From positions 1-64,000 of the forward strand of contig NZ_CDBZ01000016.1 of the NCBI RefSeq assembly GCF_000819985.1: 64,000 nucleotides of DNA, given 5' to 3'. A program made the translations under genes and the position numbers. Positions 4,088 through 61,786 of this stretch are shown one piece after another. Below the pieces are notes generated by a model. The model made no database searches. It saw only the letters and a program-made list of their open reading frames with translations, and was not told where the DNA came from. The DNA comes from Aeromonas media (lineage in GTDB: Bacteria; Pseudomonadota; Gammaproteobacteria; Enterobacterales; Aeromonadaceae). Within the stretch, counting starts at the first letter, position 1. Each line of letters opens with the position of its first letter.

Positions 4088-4444
4088 ATGCCAAGAGTTA
4101 AACGTGGTGTGACTGCTCGCGCTCGTCACAAGAAAGTAATGAAAGCCGCCAAGGGTTACTACGGCGCCCGTTCCCGTGTCTACCGCGTAGCGGTACAAGC
4201 GGTAACCAAAGCTGGTCAGTATGCCTACCGTGACCGTCGCCAGAAGAAGCGTCAGTTCCGTCAGCTGTGGATTGCGCGTATCAACGCTGCAGCCCGTCAG
4301 AACGGTCTGTCCTACAGCCGTCTGATCGACGGTCTGAAGAAAGCTTCTATCGAGATCGATCGCAAGATCCTGTCCGATATCGCCGTTCACGACAAGCTGG
4401 CTTTCACCGCCCTGGTTGAAAAGGCCAAAGCAGCTCTGGTTTAA
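4088..4444 (+). CDS. rplT: 50S ribosomal protein L20
   Basis: A 118-residue bL20, full length for the family, with the basic N-terminal extension ([19 protein letters not shown]) and the globular C-terminal part. L20 is an early assembly protein of the 50S subunit and, in E. coli, represses its own operon. It begins 14 bases after rpmI with a GGGGGATG-type ribosome-binding site and is followed by a strong terminator. Confidence 0.98.
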
Positions 4445-15712: not shown

Positions 15713-17367
15713 CTCGTCGACAGCGCCACAATCTGCTGCTCGCGGCCATCTCTCTGCTGTTTCTCTTCTCTTCCGTCTGGGGGCTGTTGCTGCAGAATCG
15801 GCACGAGCAACTGGTCGATATGTTCTATCGCAACACCCACTGGAACATCAGCCAGGTCATGCTGGAATCCCAGCGTTTCCTTTACGATTTGCGCCTCTAT
15901 CGGGCGGGAGCCCTCGAGATGGAGACCCTGAGCCTGGATTACGATCTGCTGTGGAATCGGCTGGATGTGTTTCTGGTCAGCAGCGAAACTGCCGATGCGC
16001 GCACTCGTCATGGATTGGGAAGCGTGTTGGCCAGGTTGTTTGAGGAGGTCAAGGCACTCGAACCCCAGATGCAGGCCGGTAAGCTGCAAGAGGGCGAGGC
16101 CCTTGTCCGTTCGCAGGCCCGGATTGCAGCACTGACCCGCCAGGTGGAGCAGATAGGGGATCATATTCTCTCCGGGCAGGAGCGGGAAGCCTCGCTCAAT
16201 CAACTGCGCCAGAGCCTGTTCTGGATCCAGATCTGGCAATTGATCCTGCTGGTGATGGGAGGCGTGCTGGTGTTTGCCCTGATCCGCACCAATCTGCAGA
16301 ATCGCCGCCTCTCCCTGCTCGACCCCATGACCCGGCTTGGCAATCGCCGCGCCTTGCAGGGACAGCTCAGACAATCCCTGCAGCGCAATCATGCCCAGGC
16401 CCTGGTGGTGCTGGATCTGAAACGGTTCAAGCAGGTCAATGATCTGCTCGGTTACCAGGTCGGCGATCGCCTGCTGCAGGCGGTCTCCGCCCGGCTGCGG
16501 CAAGCCTATCCCGGTCGGGCTTACCGGCTGGGGGGGGACGAATTTGCGGTGGTCCTGGCCGGCGAGCAGCCCGGCCTCGAATCCCAGATGGACGCCATGG
16601 TGAGCCTGTTGCAGTTCGAGTTCGTGACCCGGGAGAGCAGCTTCGATCTTGCCTGTCGTTTCGGGGTAGCCAGGGCTATGGAAGGGGAGGACGCGGATCA
16701 GCTGCTGGAGCAGGCCATACTGGCACTGAATCAGGCCAAGCGGGACAATGCGACCCTGATCTGGTTCCAGCCAGCGATGAAGGCCTCTCTGAGCATGAGT
16801 CAGCGTCAGCTGCATCAGTTGCGGGAGTGGTTGGCAGGGACGGCACCCTCGCCGCTGGAGACGATATCACAGACCCTGGAGGATGAGCGGGGGCAGCGGG
16901 TGCTGAACATCAGCCTGCGCTGGCGGGTGGGACAGCAGGGGTGCGACATGGACTGGATGCAGGAGCGCGGTGTGCTGGGACAAGTGGTGGCCCGATTGCT
17001 GACGGACGCCGAGCACCAGCAGCCGTTGCTGCTGGTGCTCCATCAGCAGTCTCAGCTGGCTCATGTCCTGGCCTACCTGCCCCCCTTGGAAGAGAAAGTG
17101 CTCATCCTGGCGCTGCCGACCCTGACGGAGGATGCCGCCCTGCTGGAAAAAGTCAGCCAGCGCGGCTGCGTACTGGCATTGCGTGAGCTGGGCAGTCGCG
17201 CCCCCGCACTGTTGCGCGCGGGCTGGCCGGTGCGCTACTGGCTGCCCGACCCCTCGGATCACGATGTCTTGTTGCAGCCCCTGGCGCGGCAATTGGGGCT
17301 GTTGCGTCTGGGTCGCCCGGCAGAAGAGCAAGAAGGGGAGACGAGGAGACAGCGGGAGCCCTGTTGA
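15709..17367 (+). CDS. membrane diguanylate cyclase with degenerate C-terminal EAL-like region
   Basis: A 552-residue protein starting at GTG 15709, overlapping the previous stop. Two transmembrane helices (about residues 8-27 and 168-190) enclose a periplasmic sensor region with heptad character. The GGDEF domain (about 205-370) has an intact active site GGDEF near residue 276, so it should make c-di-GMP. The inhibitory RxxD I-site is absent (the preceding residues are PGRAYRL). The last 170 residues have EAL-like spacing but no catalytic residues. The adjacent periplasmic protein is a likely sensory partner. Confidence 0.85.
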   Translation: MTRRQRHNLLLAAISLLFLFSSVWGLLLQNRHEQLVDMFYRNTHWNISQVMLESQRFLYDLRLYRAGALEMETLSLDYDLLWNRLDVFLVSSETADARTRHGLGSVLARLFEEVKALEPQMQAGKLQEGEALVRSQARIAALTRQVEQIGDHILSGQEREASLNQLRQSLFWIQIWQLILLVMGGVLVFALIRTNLQNRRLSLLDPMTRLGNRRALQGQLRQSLQRNHAQALVVLDLKRFKQVNDLLGYQVGDRLLQAVSARLRQAYPGRAYRLGGDEFAVVLAGEQPGLESQMDAMVSLLQFEFVTRESSFDLACRFGVARAMEGEDADQLLEQAILALNQAKRDNATLIWFQPAMKASLSMSQRQLHQLREWLAGTAPSPLETISQTLEDERGQRVLNISLRWRVGQQGCDMDWMQERGVLGQVVARLLTDAEHQQPLLLVLHQQSQLAHVLAYLPPLEEKVLILALPTLTEDAALLEKVSQRGCVLALRELGSRAPALLRAGWPVRYWLPDPSDHDVLLQPLARQLGLLRLGRPAEEQEGETRRQREPC

Positions 17368-57684: not shown

Positions 57685-59661
57685 TTAGAGGCCGAATAGA
57701 CGGCCCAGCAGGTTGCGCAGCACGCCACTCTTGGGTGCAGTGCCATTGAGTTCATCCAGTCTGTCCTGGATCCGGCCAAACAGGGTGTCCGGCATGTCAG
57801 GCTCGCCGGCCACACAGCCGGTCAGCAATTCGATGGCCTCTTCCACATGGTCCACCGGGTGGATATGGAACTGGCCCGCTTCGACGGCGGCAATCACCTC
57901 ATCGGAGAGGTTGAGCTGCTGGGCGTTGGTACCGGGCAGTATGATGCCTTGCTTGCCGGTGATGCCGTGGATCTTGCACACCCGGAAGAAGCCTTCGATC
58001 TTTTCGTTGACGCCACCCACAGCCTGTACGTTGCCGAACTGATCGACCGCGCCGGTCACCGCGAAACGCTGGGAGATAGGTTGGCGGGCGAGGGCAGAGA
58101 GCAGGGCGCACAGACCGGTCAGGGAAGCGCTGTCGCCGTCAATCTCGTGATAGGACTGCTCGAACACCAGGTTTGCCGAGAGCGGCGAGGGGTTCTCTGC
58201 GCCGAACTTGTTGGAGAGATAGCCGTGGATGATCATCATCGCCTTGGCGTGAATGTGGCCGGCGAGCTCAGCCTTGCGCTCGATGTCGGCCACGTCGCCA
58301 TCCCCCAGATGCACAGTGGCGGTCAGTCGCACCGGTTCACCGAAGTCATAGGGATGACCTGCCACCTGGATGACGGAGAGGCCGTTGATCTGGCCCACCT
58401 CTTCACCGTCGGTCTGCAGCAGGATCTGGCCATCGATGACTCCCTGATCGGATTGCTCCACCAGGTAGTTGAGGCGGTAATCCTGCTCCTCCAGGGCGAG
58501 CAGTATATGCTCGTCGGTCACCTTCTCCGCCTCAAGCTCCCGGGCCAGGCTGTCAGCCATGCGCATGATGGCGCTGAGCTGCACCTCCGAGAGGGAGAGC
58601 CACTCCTGATGGTCACAGAGACGACTGGCATGGCGACACAGGGCGAGGAGGGCACCCGGAGTGAAGTCCAGCAGGCTCCAGCGCAGCCGCAGCCAGGCCA
58701 GGTATTGCAGGAACTCGGGCAAGTCCTCTTCAATGTTCACCTCGGACACCAGATCGGCGCGCAGGAAGATGCGCTCGGACATGTCCCTGTCCAGCATCTG
58801 GAACTCGGCCACATCCAGCCGGTCGCCCACCAGGATCAGTTTGAACCGGATAGGCGTGGCCTCTGGGGTGAAGAAGGGGGTCAGAGTCTTGCCTTCCTGA
58901 TAGGCATTCCAGTCCAGCTCGCCTTTTTGCATGGCGTTCTTGAGCTTGAACCAGAGATGGGGCTGATCGAGCAGCTCGTCGAGTTGCAAGATGAGGTAGC
59001 CGCCGTTGGCTTCCCGCAGCAGGCCCGGCTCCAGCAAGTGCTGATTGGCATAGACGGAGCCTTGCTCGGTCTGGTAGTTGATGGAGCCAAACAGAGTGTC
59101 CCAGTTCAAGTCCCGGCCATAGATGACGGGGGCTTGCTGCTCTTCGTGATGGATCAGCAGGTTGATGAGCACCGGGTGCTGGAATTCGAGCCCCTGGGCC
59201 ACGTGCGCCGCCAGATCGGAGAGAAAGTCCACGATCTTGGGGTCATTTTCCTGCTTGCGGATGATCCGGGTGACCAGGCGCTCGGCATCCAGGTGATGGC
59301 TCATCAGCTTGAGCAGTTCGCCAACCATCTCGCAGAATTCAAACCCGGTACCGGGTTGCAGGCGCAGCCAGATGGGCTTGAACGGGTTGTTGAGGTTCTC
59401 GGTATAGCAGAGATCGAACAGGTCGCCATCCTTGCCATTGGAAGAGGCGATCAAGGTCTGGCAGACACTCTCATAATCTGCACCCGGGAAGCCGTTGAGC
59501 AACATGACCGGGCAGTCACCATCAAAACTGGCCAGTCGCTTGATGCCGGAAATGGCTCTGGGTTGCAGGGCGGCAAAAGGGATGGGTTCGAGCTCGCTGA
59601 GCGTGGGGAACTGCTCAATCGTGAAAGCGGGTTTTAATTGTTCTGATGTTAATTCAGCCAC
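57685..59661 (-). CDS. lonH: Lon-family protease LonH (YcbZ)
   Basis: A 658-residue ATP-dependent-protease homologue. The C-terminal Lon protease domain has Ser (DGDSASLTGL) and Lys (GGVNEKIEGFF) in the expected dyad. The N-terminal AAA-like region has a poor P-loop (LLNGFPGADYES) without the canonical GKT/S but keeps the LonB-type insertion (LREANGGYLILQLDELL resembles a Walker B/sensor segment). Next to fabA, exactly as ycbZ in E. coli. A gap of 78 bases separates it from fabA. Confidence 0.93.
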   Translation of the reverse strand: MAELTSEQLKPAFTIEQFPTLSELEPIPFAALQPRAISGIKRLASFDGDCPVMLLNGFPGADYESVCQTLIASSNGKDGDLFDLCYTENLNNPFKPIWLRLQPGTGFEFCEMVGELLKLMSHHLDAERLVTRIIRKQENDPKIVDFLSDLAAHVAQGLEFQHPVLINLLIHHEEQQAPVIYGRDLNWDTLFGSINYQTEQGSVYANQHLLEPGLLREANGGYLILQLDELLDQPHLWFKLKNAMQKGELDWNAYQEGKTLTPFFTPEATPIRFKLILVGDRLDVAEFQMLDRDMSERIFLRADLVSEVNIEEDLPEFLQYLAWLRLRWSLLDFTPGALLALCRHASRLCDHQEWLSLSEVQLSAIMRMADSLARELEAEKVTDEHILLALEEQDYRLNYLVEQSDQGVIDGQILLQTDGEEVGQINGLSVIQVAGHPYDFGEPVRLTATVHLGDGDVADIERKAELAGHIHAKAMMIIHGYLSNKFGAENPSPLSANLVFEQSYHEIDGDSASLTGLCALLSALARQPISQRFAVTGAVDQFGNVQAVGGVNEKIEGFFRVCKIHGITGKQGIILPGTNAQQLNLSDEVIAAVEAGQFHIHPVDHVEEAIELLTGCVAGEPDMPDTLFGRIQDRLDELNGTAPKSGVLRNLLGRLFGL

Positions 59662-59743: not shown

Positions 59744-59771
59744 ATTTAACATAATATGCATTATGCGCGGT
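59744..59771 (-). other. dif: chromosomal dif site (XerCD dimer-resolution site)
   Basis: Read on the minus strand, a XerC-side arm ACCGCGCATAA is followed by centre TGCATA and XerD-side arm TTATGTTAAAT. The E. coli dif parts are GGTGCGCATAA, TGTATA and TTATGTTAAAT: the XerD arm is identical, the centre differs at one base and the XerC arm at three outer bases (24 of 28). The site is in the gap between lonH and the recombinase gene. XerC and XerD resolve chromosome dimers here under FtsK control, so it marks the replication terminus. Confidence 0.93.
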
Positions 59772-59862: not shown

Positions 59863-61140
59863 TCATTCATGCAGGCTATTCAGAGGCTTATGGTTGGCAC
59901 TCTCGTGCCGCTCGATGTTGCCGGTGTGCAGGTATTTGGAGGTGGTGTCTATGCTGTCGTGTCCGGCGTCGGCTTGCACGTGTGACAGCGGCCGGCCATG
60001 CAGATTGATGTCGTGGGTAATGCCGGTATGGCGGATGGAGTGTGGCGTCAGGGTGCGCATCTCGGCGGCATCCTGAGCAAAGCCATCCTGCTCGGCCAGG
60101 TTGGCTGCTTGCTCGAAGACCGCCATCACCAGGTCCCGCAGTTGGCGGATACCGAGATTGGCATTGAGCTCGCCTTGCTCACGGCCATGGGCGGCCGCCT
60201 TGTGGCGCACGAAGAGCGGCGTCTGTTCGCCTGGGGCTGGCAGCGGCGAGAGCCCAAGAAAGGTGCGATAGCGTGCCAATGCATCCAGCAAAGCTTGTGA
60301 GACGGCCACTGTGCGGCGTTTGCCACCCTTGCTGCGCGGTATGTCATAACCCCAGACCCCGGTCTTGCTGTCGCGGCGAAACTGGCTCATGACGGGGCTG
60401 AAGCCCGGTCTGGCCGCCACCTCGGAGATACGCAGATAACAGGCGTACATGAGGCAGATGAGAAATCGGCTGCGTTCATGCTGGGCCGGGCATTCGGTTG
60501 CCAACTGTTCGGCAGCCTGCATCACATAGGACCACTGCAATTCGGTAAAGGACTGGGCCTCTTCACCGGCGTCCTGGCTGTCCGGCCGCTTGACCCGTTG
60601 CAGCAAGAGTGCAGGATTGAGGTCCATGTACTCCTCCTGGATCAGGAATTGAAAGAAGGCCGACAGTATGGCGAGCTTGGTTTTCATCGCCTGCTCGCTC
60701 AGGCGATATGGCAGCTCGCGGCCCAGTTCCCGCTTGCCGAGAAACGGTCGCCACAAGGGGTTGGGCAGCCGCTCTCCCCACTCCTTGTCGAGTACGAACT
60801 GGGCTACGTTTCGGTATGCGATCAGCGCCTGTGGCGGTGCCTGGCAGTAGTCGAGGTAGCGCATCATGATGCGCCTGGTGAGATCCTTGGGGCTGATGGC
60901 CACTTCGCAGAAACACCAATGCAGGAAGGTGGTCAGCTCGCTGCGGTAGGTCTTGTAGTTGTTCTCGCTGTGGCGCTGCTCCAGCAGCCAGTCGACAGCC
61001 AGCTCATAGACGAGGCCGGCATCGGGAACATTGCCCAGGCTGAGAGTGGCCAGATACTGGTTGACCTGGGGATTGCCCGCCTCCAGATGGAGCAGATTGT
61101 CGAACAGCGGCATGGCGGGCGGCAGTGACGGATGATTCAT
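59863..61140 (-). CDS. tyrosine site-specific recombinase
   Basis: A 425-residue recombinase. N-terminal SAM-like core-binding region (about residues 30-200; YKTYRSELTTFLHWCF), C-terminal catalytic domain with all key residues: first Arg in YLRISEVA, Lys in the KGGKRRTV beta-hairpin, HSIRHTG (His-x-x-Arg), AGHDSI (His) and nucleophile Tyr in SKYLHTG. It is longer than XerC/XerD (about 300 residues) and diverged, so it is not the housekeeping pair. It ends 92 bases from dif, and a perfect Xer-like palindrome lies 51 bases upstream of its start. No phage or transposon genes adjoin it. Start at 61140 is preceded by no clear ribosome-binding site. Confidence 0.9.
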   Translation of the reverse strand: MNHPSLPPAMPLFDNLLHLEAGNPQVNQYLATLSLGNVPDAGLVYELAVDWLLEQRHSENNYKTYRSELTTFLHWCFCEVAISPKDLTRRIMMRYLDYCQAPPQALIAYRNVAQFVLDKEWGERLPNPLWRPFLGKRELGRELPYRLSEQAMKTKLAILSAFFQFLIQEEYMDLNPALLLQRVKRPDSQDAGEEAQSFTELQWSYVMQAAEQLATECPAQHERSRFLICLMYACYLRISEVAARPGFSPVMSQFRRDSKTGVWGYDIPRSKGGKRRTVAVSQALLDALARYRTFLGLSPLPAPGEQTPLFVRHKAAAHGREQGELNANLGIRQLRDLVMAVFEQAANLAEQDGFAQDAAEMRTLTPHSIRHTGITHDINLHGRPLSHVQADAGHDSIDTTSKYLHTGNIERHESANHKPLNSLHE

Positions 61141-61190
61141 GATGGTGCTTGTGAGTCTTGCTGAGTGAGGCTGGCCCGGTGTCGCGCAAT

Positions 61191-61224
61191 CCTGATGCCG
61201 ATAAATGGGGTTATCGGCATCAGG
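61191..61224. repeat. perfect 14-6-14 inverted repeat upstream of the recombinase gene
   Basis: Arms CCTGATGCCGATAA (61191-61204) and TTATCGGCATCAGG (61211-61224) flank a 6-base centre ATGGGG. The inner ends (ATAA, centre, TTAT) and the 6-base centre are those of Xer core sites. A further GATGCC (61226-61231) repeats part of the arm. There is no T-run, so it is not a terminator. It could be the recombinase's own site or its operator. Confidence 0.85.
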
Positions 61225-61429
61225 AGATGCCAGATGGTCCGGGGATGATTCTTCAAGGCTTTCCCTGGCGGACACAGCTCAGGATAGAACATGGTCTTTA
61301 TTCAATGAATATGCACTCTTGTTGGAAGTTTCTCGGGGTAAATAGCGACAAGAGTGACTGGAAATGGGCCCTGCATGAATATTGTGGTGCGGGGCCCAGG
61401 GCTGGACGCCCTGCCCCGTCCTTTCCTTG

Positions 61430-61735
61430 TCAGGCCACACTCTTGAGGGATTTTCCCTTGGGCTTCTCGGTGTCCACCTTGTCTTCCTTGGTGCTGATCC
61501 CCTGCCCCTTACCACCGCGCAGCACGTTTTGCAGCAGATCCCGCTGCTCGGCCAGGTAAAAGGCCAAGCGCTCCTGCTGCTCGGGCGCCAGCTGGACAGG
61601 CGCTCCGGCCAGCAGCGTCATCAGTTCATCGGCGGTATCCAGCAGCTTGTCATAGGCATCCGCCTCTTTCTTGCTGGCAAAGGTCATCTTCTCCACTCCC
61701 CCACGCACGACAACATACTTGATCTCAACGGCCAT
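61430..61735 (-). CDS. yebG: YebG, DNA-damage-inducible small protein
   Basis: A 101-residue protein matching E. coli YebG over the first 75 residues (MAVEIKYVVVRGGVEKMTFASK, then KEADAYDKLLDTADEL and LAEQRDLLQNVLR), with a Lys-rich tail. It is SOS-induced in E. coli; the biochemical role is unclear. The start at 61735 is chosen to match the family; a longer frame upstream would run through the SOS box. The 289 bases upstream of the recombinase that separate the two genes hold the palindrome at 61191 and nothing else recognised. Confidence 0.93.
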   Translation of the reverse strand: MAVEIKYVVVRGGVEKMTFASKKEADAYDKLLDTADELMTLLAGAPVQLAPEQQERLAFYLAEQRDLLQNVLRGGKGQGISTKEDKVDTEKPKGKSLKSVA

Positions 61736-61770: not shown

Positions 61771-61786
61771 ATGTATGAATATACAG
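61771..61786 (-). promoter_or_regulatory. LexA (SOS) box upstream of yebG
   Basis: On the minus strand CTGT-ATATTCAT-ACAT, 7 of 8 conserved positions of the LexA consensus CTGT-N8-ACAG with the usual AT-rich centre. It is 36 bases upstream of the yebG ATG, as expected for repression. The divergent letA-like gene starts at 61960, further away. Confidence 0.7.

Follow-up and report, generated by a model that had tools for sequence, protein, structure and literature searches.

Chromosome dimer resolution in these bacteria is usually ascribed to XerCD acting at dif, and the question raised by the locus described here is why a chromosome with dif would keep, right beside it, another tyrosine recombinase gene and a perfect palindrome. 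The locus lies in a 64,000-nucleotide stretch of Aeromonas media DNA (contig NZ_CDBZ01000016.1, positions 1 to 64,000; hereafter the window), and we refer to the palindrome as S. We favor reading the locus as a two-part module, a homomeric XerL-like recombinase together with S, that probably serves as a second dimer-resolution system beside XerCD/dif. The gene and its site are both intact, they are conserved together beside dif, and copies of S are found on phages and on two plasmids.

An earlier reading made from the sequence alone (the sequence-only reading) had proposed an intact recombinase between dif and a perfect palindrome, and both parts were borne out. The window holds a single perfect dif match, with none expected by chance, and 94 bp separate it from a gene whose product matches PF00589 at E 1e-12. 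The open reading frame spans 59863-61275 on the minus strand; its likely start is the ATG at 61140, giving 425 amino acids, because the longer GTG start would place S within the gene. With this start, 49 bp separate the start codon from S on its upstream side. The inner ends of S, ATAA and TTAT, were read correctly in the sequence-only reading, but its extent of 14-6-14 at 61191-61224 fell short, as the arms are 15-6-15 at 61190-61225, around a conserved core of 12-6-12. The same reading saw no mobile-element cargo, which is true between gene and dif here but not in relatives, where filamentous prophages occupy exactly that position.

Palindromy by itself is rare and not decisive (palindromes with 12-base arms and spacers of 4-8 bases appeared in 1 of 20 Markov-simulated windows, and the real window has four other such loci); what decides is conservation. 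Across 295 genomes of the order, the exact sequence TGCCGATAA-N6-TTATCGGCA occurs in 45, and all 45 are among the 49 with a close ortholog of the recombinase (Fisher p 6e-49, which kinship among the genomes makes too strong; scored per genome, so that S and gene may sit on different contigs). The four others are G002 and G012, with one mismatch each, G257, with one arm and the centre only, and G027, where no S was found; few of the genomes that keep a close ortholog thus lack the palindrome. Allowing one mismatch adds nine genomes, two with and seven without a close ortholog, against one for the reversed control. This co-occurrence supports the dedicated recombinase-site pair at the terminus that the sequence-only reading had put forward.

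Within the genus, a free-centre search found CCCCAT in 16/16 loci, from 16 species, with S upstream of the gene. Pairwise identity among these loci is 1.00 for the left arm plus centre and 0.98 for the right arm, against 0.39-0.45 for the non-coding flanks; that analysis selected S copies by CCCCAT, and the invariance of the centre rests on the free-centre search. Neither the compensatory change of a hairpin nor the spacer drift of a plain operator is seen in the 16 loci. Eleven distinct host centres, picked by hand, have a common polarity (score 43/66, where none of 60 shuffles scored above 37). We rejected a chance palindrome, given the conservation of arms and centre beside diverged flanks, and also a repeated element, since a search at up to three mismatches found the S core once in the window and once in the genome.

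S is positioned at the replication terminus, beside dif. The accessible part of PMC2731167 reports for A. hydrophila ATCC 7966 a dif of the same form as that in the window, 20 kb from the skew maximum. We found dif in 37/37 genus genomes, and in seven of them, with assemblies of one to three contigs, dif and the nearest S are separated by 73 to 1459 bp. In G035 the recombinase is 64 kb from dif, yet S stays 0.9 kb from dif. Aeromonas loci follow two architectures, with S either upstream of the gene (16 of the 30 loci fetched first) or between gene and dif; in G005, which has the second architecture and no prophage, S stands beside a phage-repressor-like gene. For the second architecture, the idea that a decayed S persists ahead of the gene was considered and is unsupported, the best matches in the 14 loci scanned being at or near the shuffle level.

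The same grouping extends well beyond the genus. In named genomes 162 relatives were detected, and the best 80, which we analyzed, comprise 27 from Aeromonas and 53 from outside it; the genera among them are Aeromonas, Tolumonas, Oceanimonas, Oceanisphaera, Zobellella, Marinobacterium, Neptunomonas, Pontibacterium, Ferrimonas, Shewanella, and others. The 53 non-Aeromonas loci contain S in 40 cases and dif in 32 (one only at four mismatches), and the reversed controls gave 0 and 0. In 27 of the 53 the aligned gene is preceded by S at a distance of 65-111 bp, and in 21 of those 27 dif follows within 250 bp of the gene end (in L236 only at four mismatches). Gene, S, and dif are grouped in Oceanimonas, Oceanisphaera, Zobellella, Marinobacterium, Neptunomonas, and Shewanella, confirming the co-conservation beside dif that the sequence-only reading had set as a check; neighboring genes and dif orientation vary between families.

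The recombinase itself is under purifying selection (median dN/dS 0.069 and median dS 1.17 over 91 pairs of 14 sequences), which, together with the breadth of its distribution, disfavors the earlier suggestion of a relic of an element that used dif. Residues R237, K271, H367, R370, H394, and Y403, designated catalytic by position (P0001 numbering is one higher), are invariant in 14 Aeromonas sequences and in a 10-sequence alignment. The gene is intact in 35/37 genus genomes; a stop splits it in G016, and it was not found in G013, which also has no yebG, so an assembly gap is possible there. At the order level, 74/295 genomes match at E 1e-30 or better, and the 49 close orthologs have at least 54% identity. 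In the recombinase tree, rows mostly cluster by family, although several deep forks are weak, and the protein of plasmid pSbal01 nests within Shewanella. The recombinase of 'Marinobacter nauticus DP3N21-5' (L231) clusters with Ferrimonas and has the same S centre, pointing to a mislabelled genome or to transfer. In both G016 and G157, S is retained though a stop breaks the recombinase gene.

Among described systems, XerL/dif comes nearest. According to the accessible part of PMC9765430, the lone recombinase of Legionellales is necessary and sufficient, L. pneumophila XerL by itself recombines a dif having perfectly palindromic arms, a Legionellales mobile element carries a copy of the site, and xerL is restricted to Legionellales, the database searched being that of Legionellales. 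The Aeromonas system is alike in having a lone tyrosine recombinase of similar size (the L. adelaidensis relative has 405 aa and its tyrosine at 385, compared with Y387 in L. pneumophila XerL), a terminus site whose 10-12 bp arms are perfectly palindromic and enclose a short centre, and a further copy of that site on a mobile element; some copies are plasmid-borne. The XerL-like protein of L. adelaidensis shows 35.2% identity to the recombinase over 96% of the query, and from its length, tyrosine position, and neighbors tig-clpP-clpX-lon we infer that it is the XerL ortholog, the comparison being with this protein. The neighbors of lpg1867, the L. pneumophila xerL, are presumably like this tig-clpP-clpX-lon set.

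The system also departs from XerL. The Aeromonas system coexists with XerCD/dif, whereas XerL replaces XerCD; the Aeromonas gene adjoins its own site and dif; in the array examined, Aeromonas phages join at dif, not S; and the proteins are only ~35% identical. In the tree, the L. adelaidensis protein clusters with plasmid proteins of Pseudomonas and Pseudoalteromonas, outside the chromosomal clade, where long branches meet. Because XerD (above cut-off in 36/37 genus genomes) and dif share genomes with the recombinase, we file the system as XerL-like rather than XerL.

Cre is a homomeric recombinase that acts at a palindromic site, loxP, and so resolves the dimers of its replicon, and the module proposed here would resemble Cre/loxP in these respects; Cre is also the best fold match of the predicted structure. 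The geometry of loxP is 13-8-13, however, and Cre has no close sequence relation to the recombinase. With XerC/XerD-dif the system shares a 6-bp centre, the ATAA/TTAT inner ends, and the tyrosine recombinase family, but the arms of S are unlike dif, the site is symmetric, and there is one longer protein, which scores 61.5 and 61.1 bits against XerC and XerD equivalog cut-offs of 335 and 330. XerS/difSL of streptococci and XerH/difH of Campylobacter and Helicobacter, as outlined in the accessible part of PMC2731167, likewise link one recombinase to a near-terminus site; the XerS model gives our recombinase 21.5 bits against a cut-off of 267. No published account of the recombinase-S pair was recognized in the literature searched, a scope outside which most subscription papers lie.

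S also travels on filamentous phages, which raises the alternative that S is an attachment site for phage integration and excision and the enzyme a domesticated phage integrase whose role at the terminus is secondary. Inovirus prophages with Zot and replication genes lie between recombinase and dif in several genus genomes, and exact S occurs in 65 viral-contig stretches, some of which share a contig, with inovirus genes matched in 50 of them. In contigs identified through Zot (lists of at least 79 and 26, with S scored at up to three mismatches), S is present in 51 of the 60 listed at 72% Zot identity or more, which represent Aeromonas-type filamentous phages, and in 0/45 listed at 48% or less, with 0/105 for the reversed control; some of these contigs include host flank, and part of their S copies may be the host's. 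Direct repeats of S with centre CCCCAT flank a unit made up of recombinase and prophage in G007, G010, G032 (where the repeated copy has four arm mismatches), and G036, and six IMG/VR records start within five bases of the S core.

The array in G036 (L032, L033), however, speaks against an attachment site. One oppositely oriented filamentous prophage stands first in it, three copies of another come next at intervals of 7726 bp, and the repeated unit stops in the XerC half of dif, ~45 bp past S; the inner two copies have an attP-like GCGCATAATG...TTATGTT where the last copy has dif. These phages therefore entered via dif, as CTX-type phages enter chromosomes, with S forming a distinct segment of their DNA, so that S as the integration junction is rejected in this array, the one read base by base. 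Moreover, phage S centres are often unlike the host centre, genomes with S upstream show no further S on the yebG side of the same contig, the recombinase is encoded by 0/50,697 phage records at E 1e-15, the gene mostly tracks families in the tree, and S is kept in genomes without a prophage between gene and dif. On balance, we consider the attachment-site explanation unlikely.

Further observations concern S on mobile DNA. Phage contigs L284, L286, L287, L290, L291, and L317 have a variant site whose left arm ends in ATAT, not ATAA. In G009 (L151 7381-7800), a complete S stands inside a spacer of a CRISPR array, which we take to be type I-E-like from its repeats ending CCCGCGGGGATGAACCG, as if the array targeted S-bearing phages at S itself; this spacer is an independent sign of S travelling on invading DNA. 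G034 has an S copy (L043 7821-7850) ~2.1 Mb from dif, near an addiction-module antidote-like gene and a Mg-chelatase-type gene that is presumably ComM-like, and this copy possibly marks another S-carrying mobile element.

The recombinase could instead bind S as an autoregulatory operator, with phages carrying decoys or operators of their own. S lies within ~110 bp upstream of the gene in many genera and overlaps the start of the replication open reading frame in one phage type, as an operator might. Against this, the promoter lacks S in 14 of the 30 genus loci fetched first, the best matches to a decayed copy there being at or near the shuffle level, and in several of those loci that reach far enough S is nearer dif. 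In another phage type S follows the last large gene, the centre is identical in all 16 loci with S upstream, and a consensus scan found no sigma-70-like match at S or elsewhere between yebG and the recombinase. We regard an operator as improbable.

Homologs of the recombinase occur in 270 of 72,556 plasmid records at E 1e-20, by record name mostly in Pseudomonas (148), then Vibrio (25) and others, and are annotated only as integrases. Among the matches listed, 57/60 records are of at least 100 kb, one being a mislabelled chromosome: NZ_AP026896 in PLSDB (L157, labelled plasmid pKAM479_3), at 4.94 Mb and with both S and recombinase, is most likely a chromosome. The sequence-only reading had called for a search for further copies of the arm; in the genome the S core is single at up to three mismatches, and exact S was found in 2 of the 14 plasmid records tested: on pSbal01, ~50 bp upstream of its recombinase copy, and on Alteromonas pKD01, ~0.9 kb upstream of the recombinase. 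Another 5/14 records have matches only at two or three mismatches, for which the reversed control matches four.

These plasmids also bear on the idea of an accessory role at S, in which the recombinase would assist XerCD at the neighboring dif or regulate the recombination there. Such a role would suit the spacing of S and dif, mostly within a few kb in hosts and integrated phages, and a distant homolog on an 860-kb Pseudoalteromonas megaplasmid (L164) has ~0.8 kb upstream a dif-like sequence (4142-4166 or its reverse-strand counterpart) with four mismatches and the XerD half intact. All active-site residues are conserved, however, S-dif spacing and dif orientation are variable, and in 13/14 plasmid loci no dif-like sequence was found in the gene surroundings scanned, which makes an accessory very improbable. 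Equally hard to credit is that S is bound by an unrelated factor, such as a terminus-organising protein, or acts as an RNA hairpin, as the terminus position and perfect palindrome might suggest, because S strictly co-occurs with the recombinase in one or few copies per genome and keeps its arm sequence, not merely its pairing, with no Rfam match, the hairpin being rejected on these last grounds.

Returning to the module of recombinase and S, we propose that two recombinase protomers would bind the two arms of S and synapse with a second S, and that strands would be exchanged where the arms border the 6-bp centre, which is asymmetric and would thereby give S its direction. A homomeric enzyme is suggested because of the 12-6-12 geometry, the ATAA/TTAT ends, the directional centre, and the complete active site, and also because one protein is linked to one symmetric site and the structure model, although modest, is Cre-like (mean pLDDT 71 with a poor C terminus; top fold matches are Cre complexes, at low TM-scores). 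Since each chromosome has one S, at the terminus, the natural partner would be S on the sister chromosome, which would make dimer resolution or sister-terminus processing the most likely job. The recombinase would act beside XerCD at dif and independently of it. Filamentous phages that integrate at dif through XerC, and some large plasmids, may plausibly carry S for resolution of multimers or tandem copies by the host enzyme.

A link to DNA damage, perhaps through the neighboring yebG, is conjecture on our part. It draws on the Aeromonas arrangement, where the recombinase gene comes after yebG and has no sigma-70-like match of its own. In scans with what we take to be the LexA consensus, 4/15 order-level loci had LexA-like boxes in the 200 bp ahead of the recombinase, and 0/15 had the reversed pattern. 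The relatives L126, L127, L130, and L131, which have no S there, carry LexA-like boxes a short way upstream of the recombinase. More broadly, and only tentatively, several gammaproteobacterial families might keep two independent Xer systems at one terminus, XerCD/dif, coupled to division, and a XerL-like enzyme at S, linked to DNA damage and transcribed with yebG or like it. S would then be selected to stay near dif, the centre hexamer could act as a compatibility code, and phages might carry S to keep the second system working, or to exit the chromosome and resolve tandems.

Several findings weigh against a terminus module. The same genomes contain XerCD and dif, so that the need for a second system is not evident. 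The order-level spread of the close ortholog is patchy (49/295), and the gene is broken in two genomes, G016 and G157. S was not found in 13/53 non-Aeromonas loci, four of them shorter than 8 kb, nor in G027 and G017, which carry the gene and in which gene and dif are on separate contigs. It is also missing upstream of the gene in nearly half of the first 30 genus loci, as noted above, and exact in few of the plasmid records. Among the viral stretches with exact S, 15/65 have no inovirus gene match, so that S is not limited to inoviruses or some matches are chance. Finally, no rearrangement was seen that shows strand exchange at S.

If the module acts as proposed, a second recombinase and site in Aeromonadaceae, Shewanella, and Oceanospirillaceae would account for a core gene, and the XerL type would reach beyond Legionellales. 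It would also make it possible to test why two systems persist in some bacteria, give dif-integrating filamentous phages a second host recombination target, and offer a recombination pair of a single protein and a single site.

The features of the locus are collected in Table 1. The YebG match is to Pfam, the match to the NCBIfam model for this family being under its cut-off, and fabA also lies on the Lon side of dif, opposite the recombinase.

Table 1. Features at and around the recombinase-S locus (window positions)
Feature	Position	Strand	Basis
Lon-like protease gene, far side of dif (context)	57685-59661	-	Library match
dif core GCGCATAATGCATATTATGTTAAAT, canonical XerC/XerD type	59744-59768	-	Pattern match
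Tyrosine recombinase, 425 aa (likely start), XerL-like, six expected catalytic residues	59863-61140	-	Open reading frame, Pfam, alignment
Palindrome S, arms 15-6-15, proposed recombination core site	61190-61225		Inverted-repeat search
Conserved 30-bp core TGATGCCGATAA-N6-TTATCGGCATCA (deep core TGCCGATAA-N6-TTATCGGCA)	61193-61222		Cross-genome comparison
Asymmetric 6-bp S centre CCCCAT (minus-strand reading)	61205-61210	-	Identical in 16/16 genus loci with S upstream
yebG (family of DNA-damage-inducible proteins), adjoining the recombinase upstream, co-directional	61430-61735	-	Pfam YebG 1.1e-31
LexA-like box CTGTATATTCATACAT preceding yebG	61771-61786	-	Read from sequence, LexA consensus

Elsewhere in the window, four further perfect inverted repeats with arms of at least 12 bases stand at 17011, 17387, 32893, and 48632.
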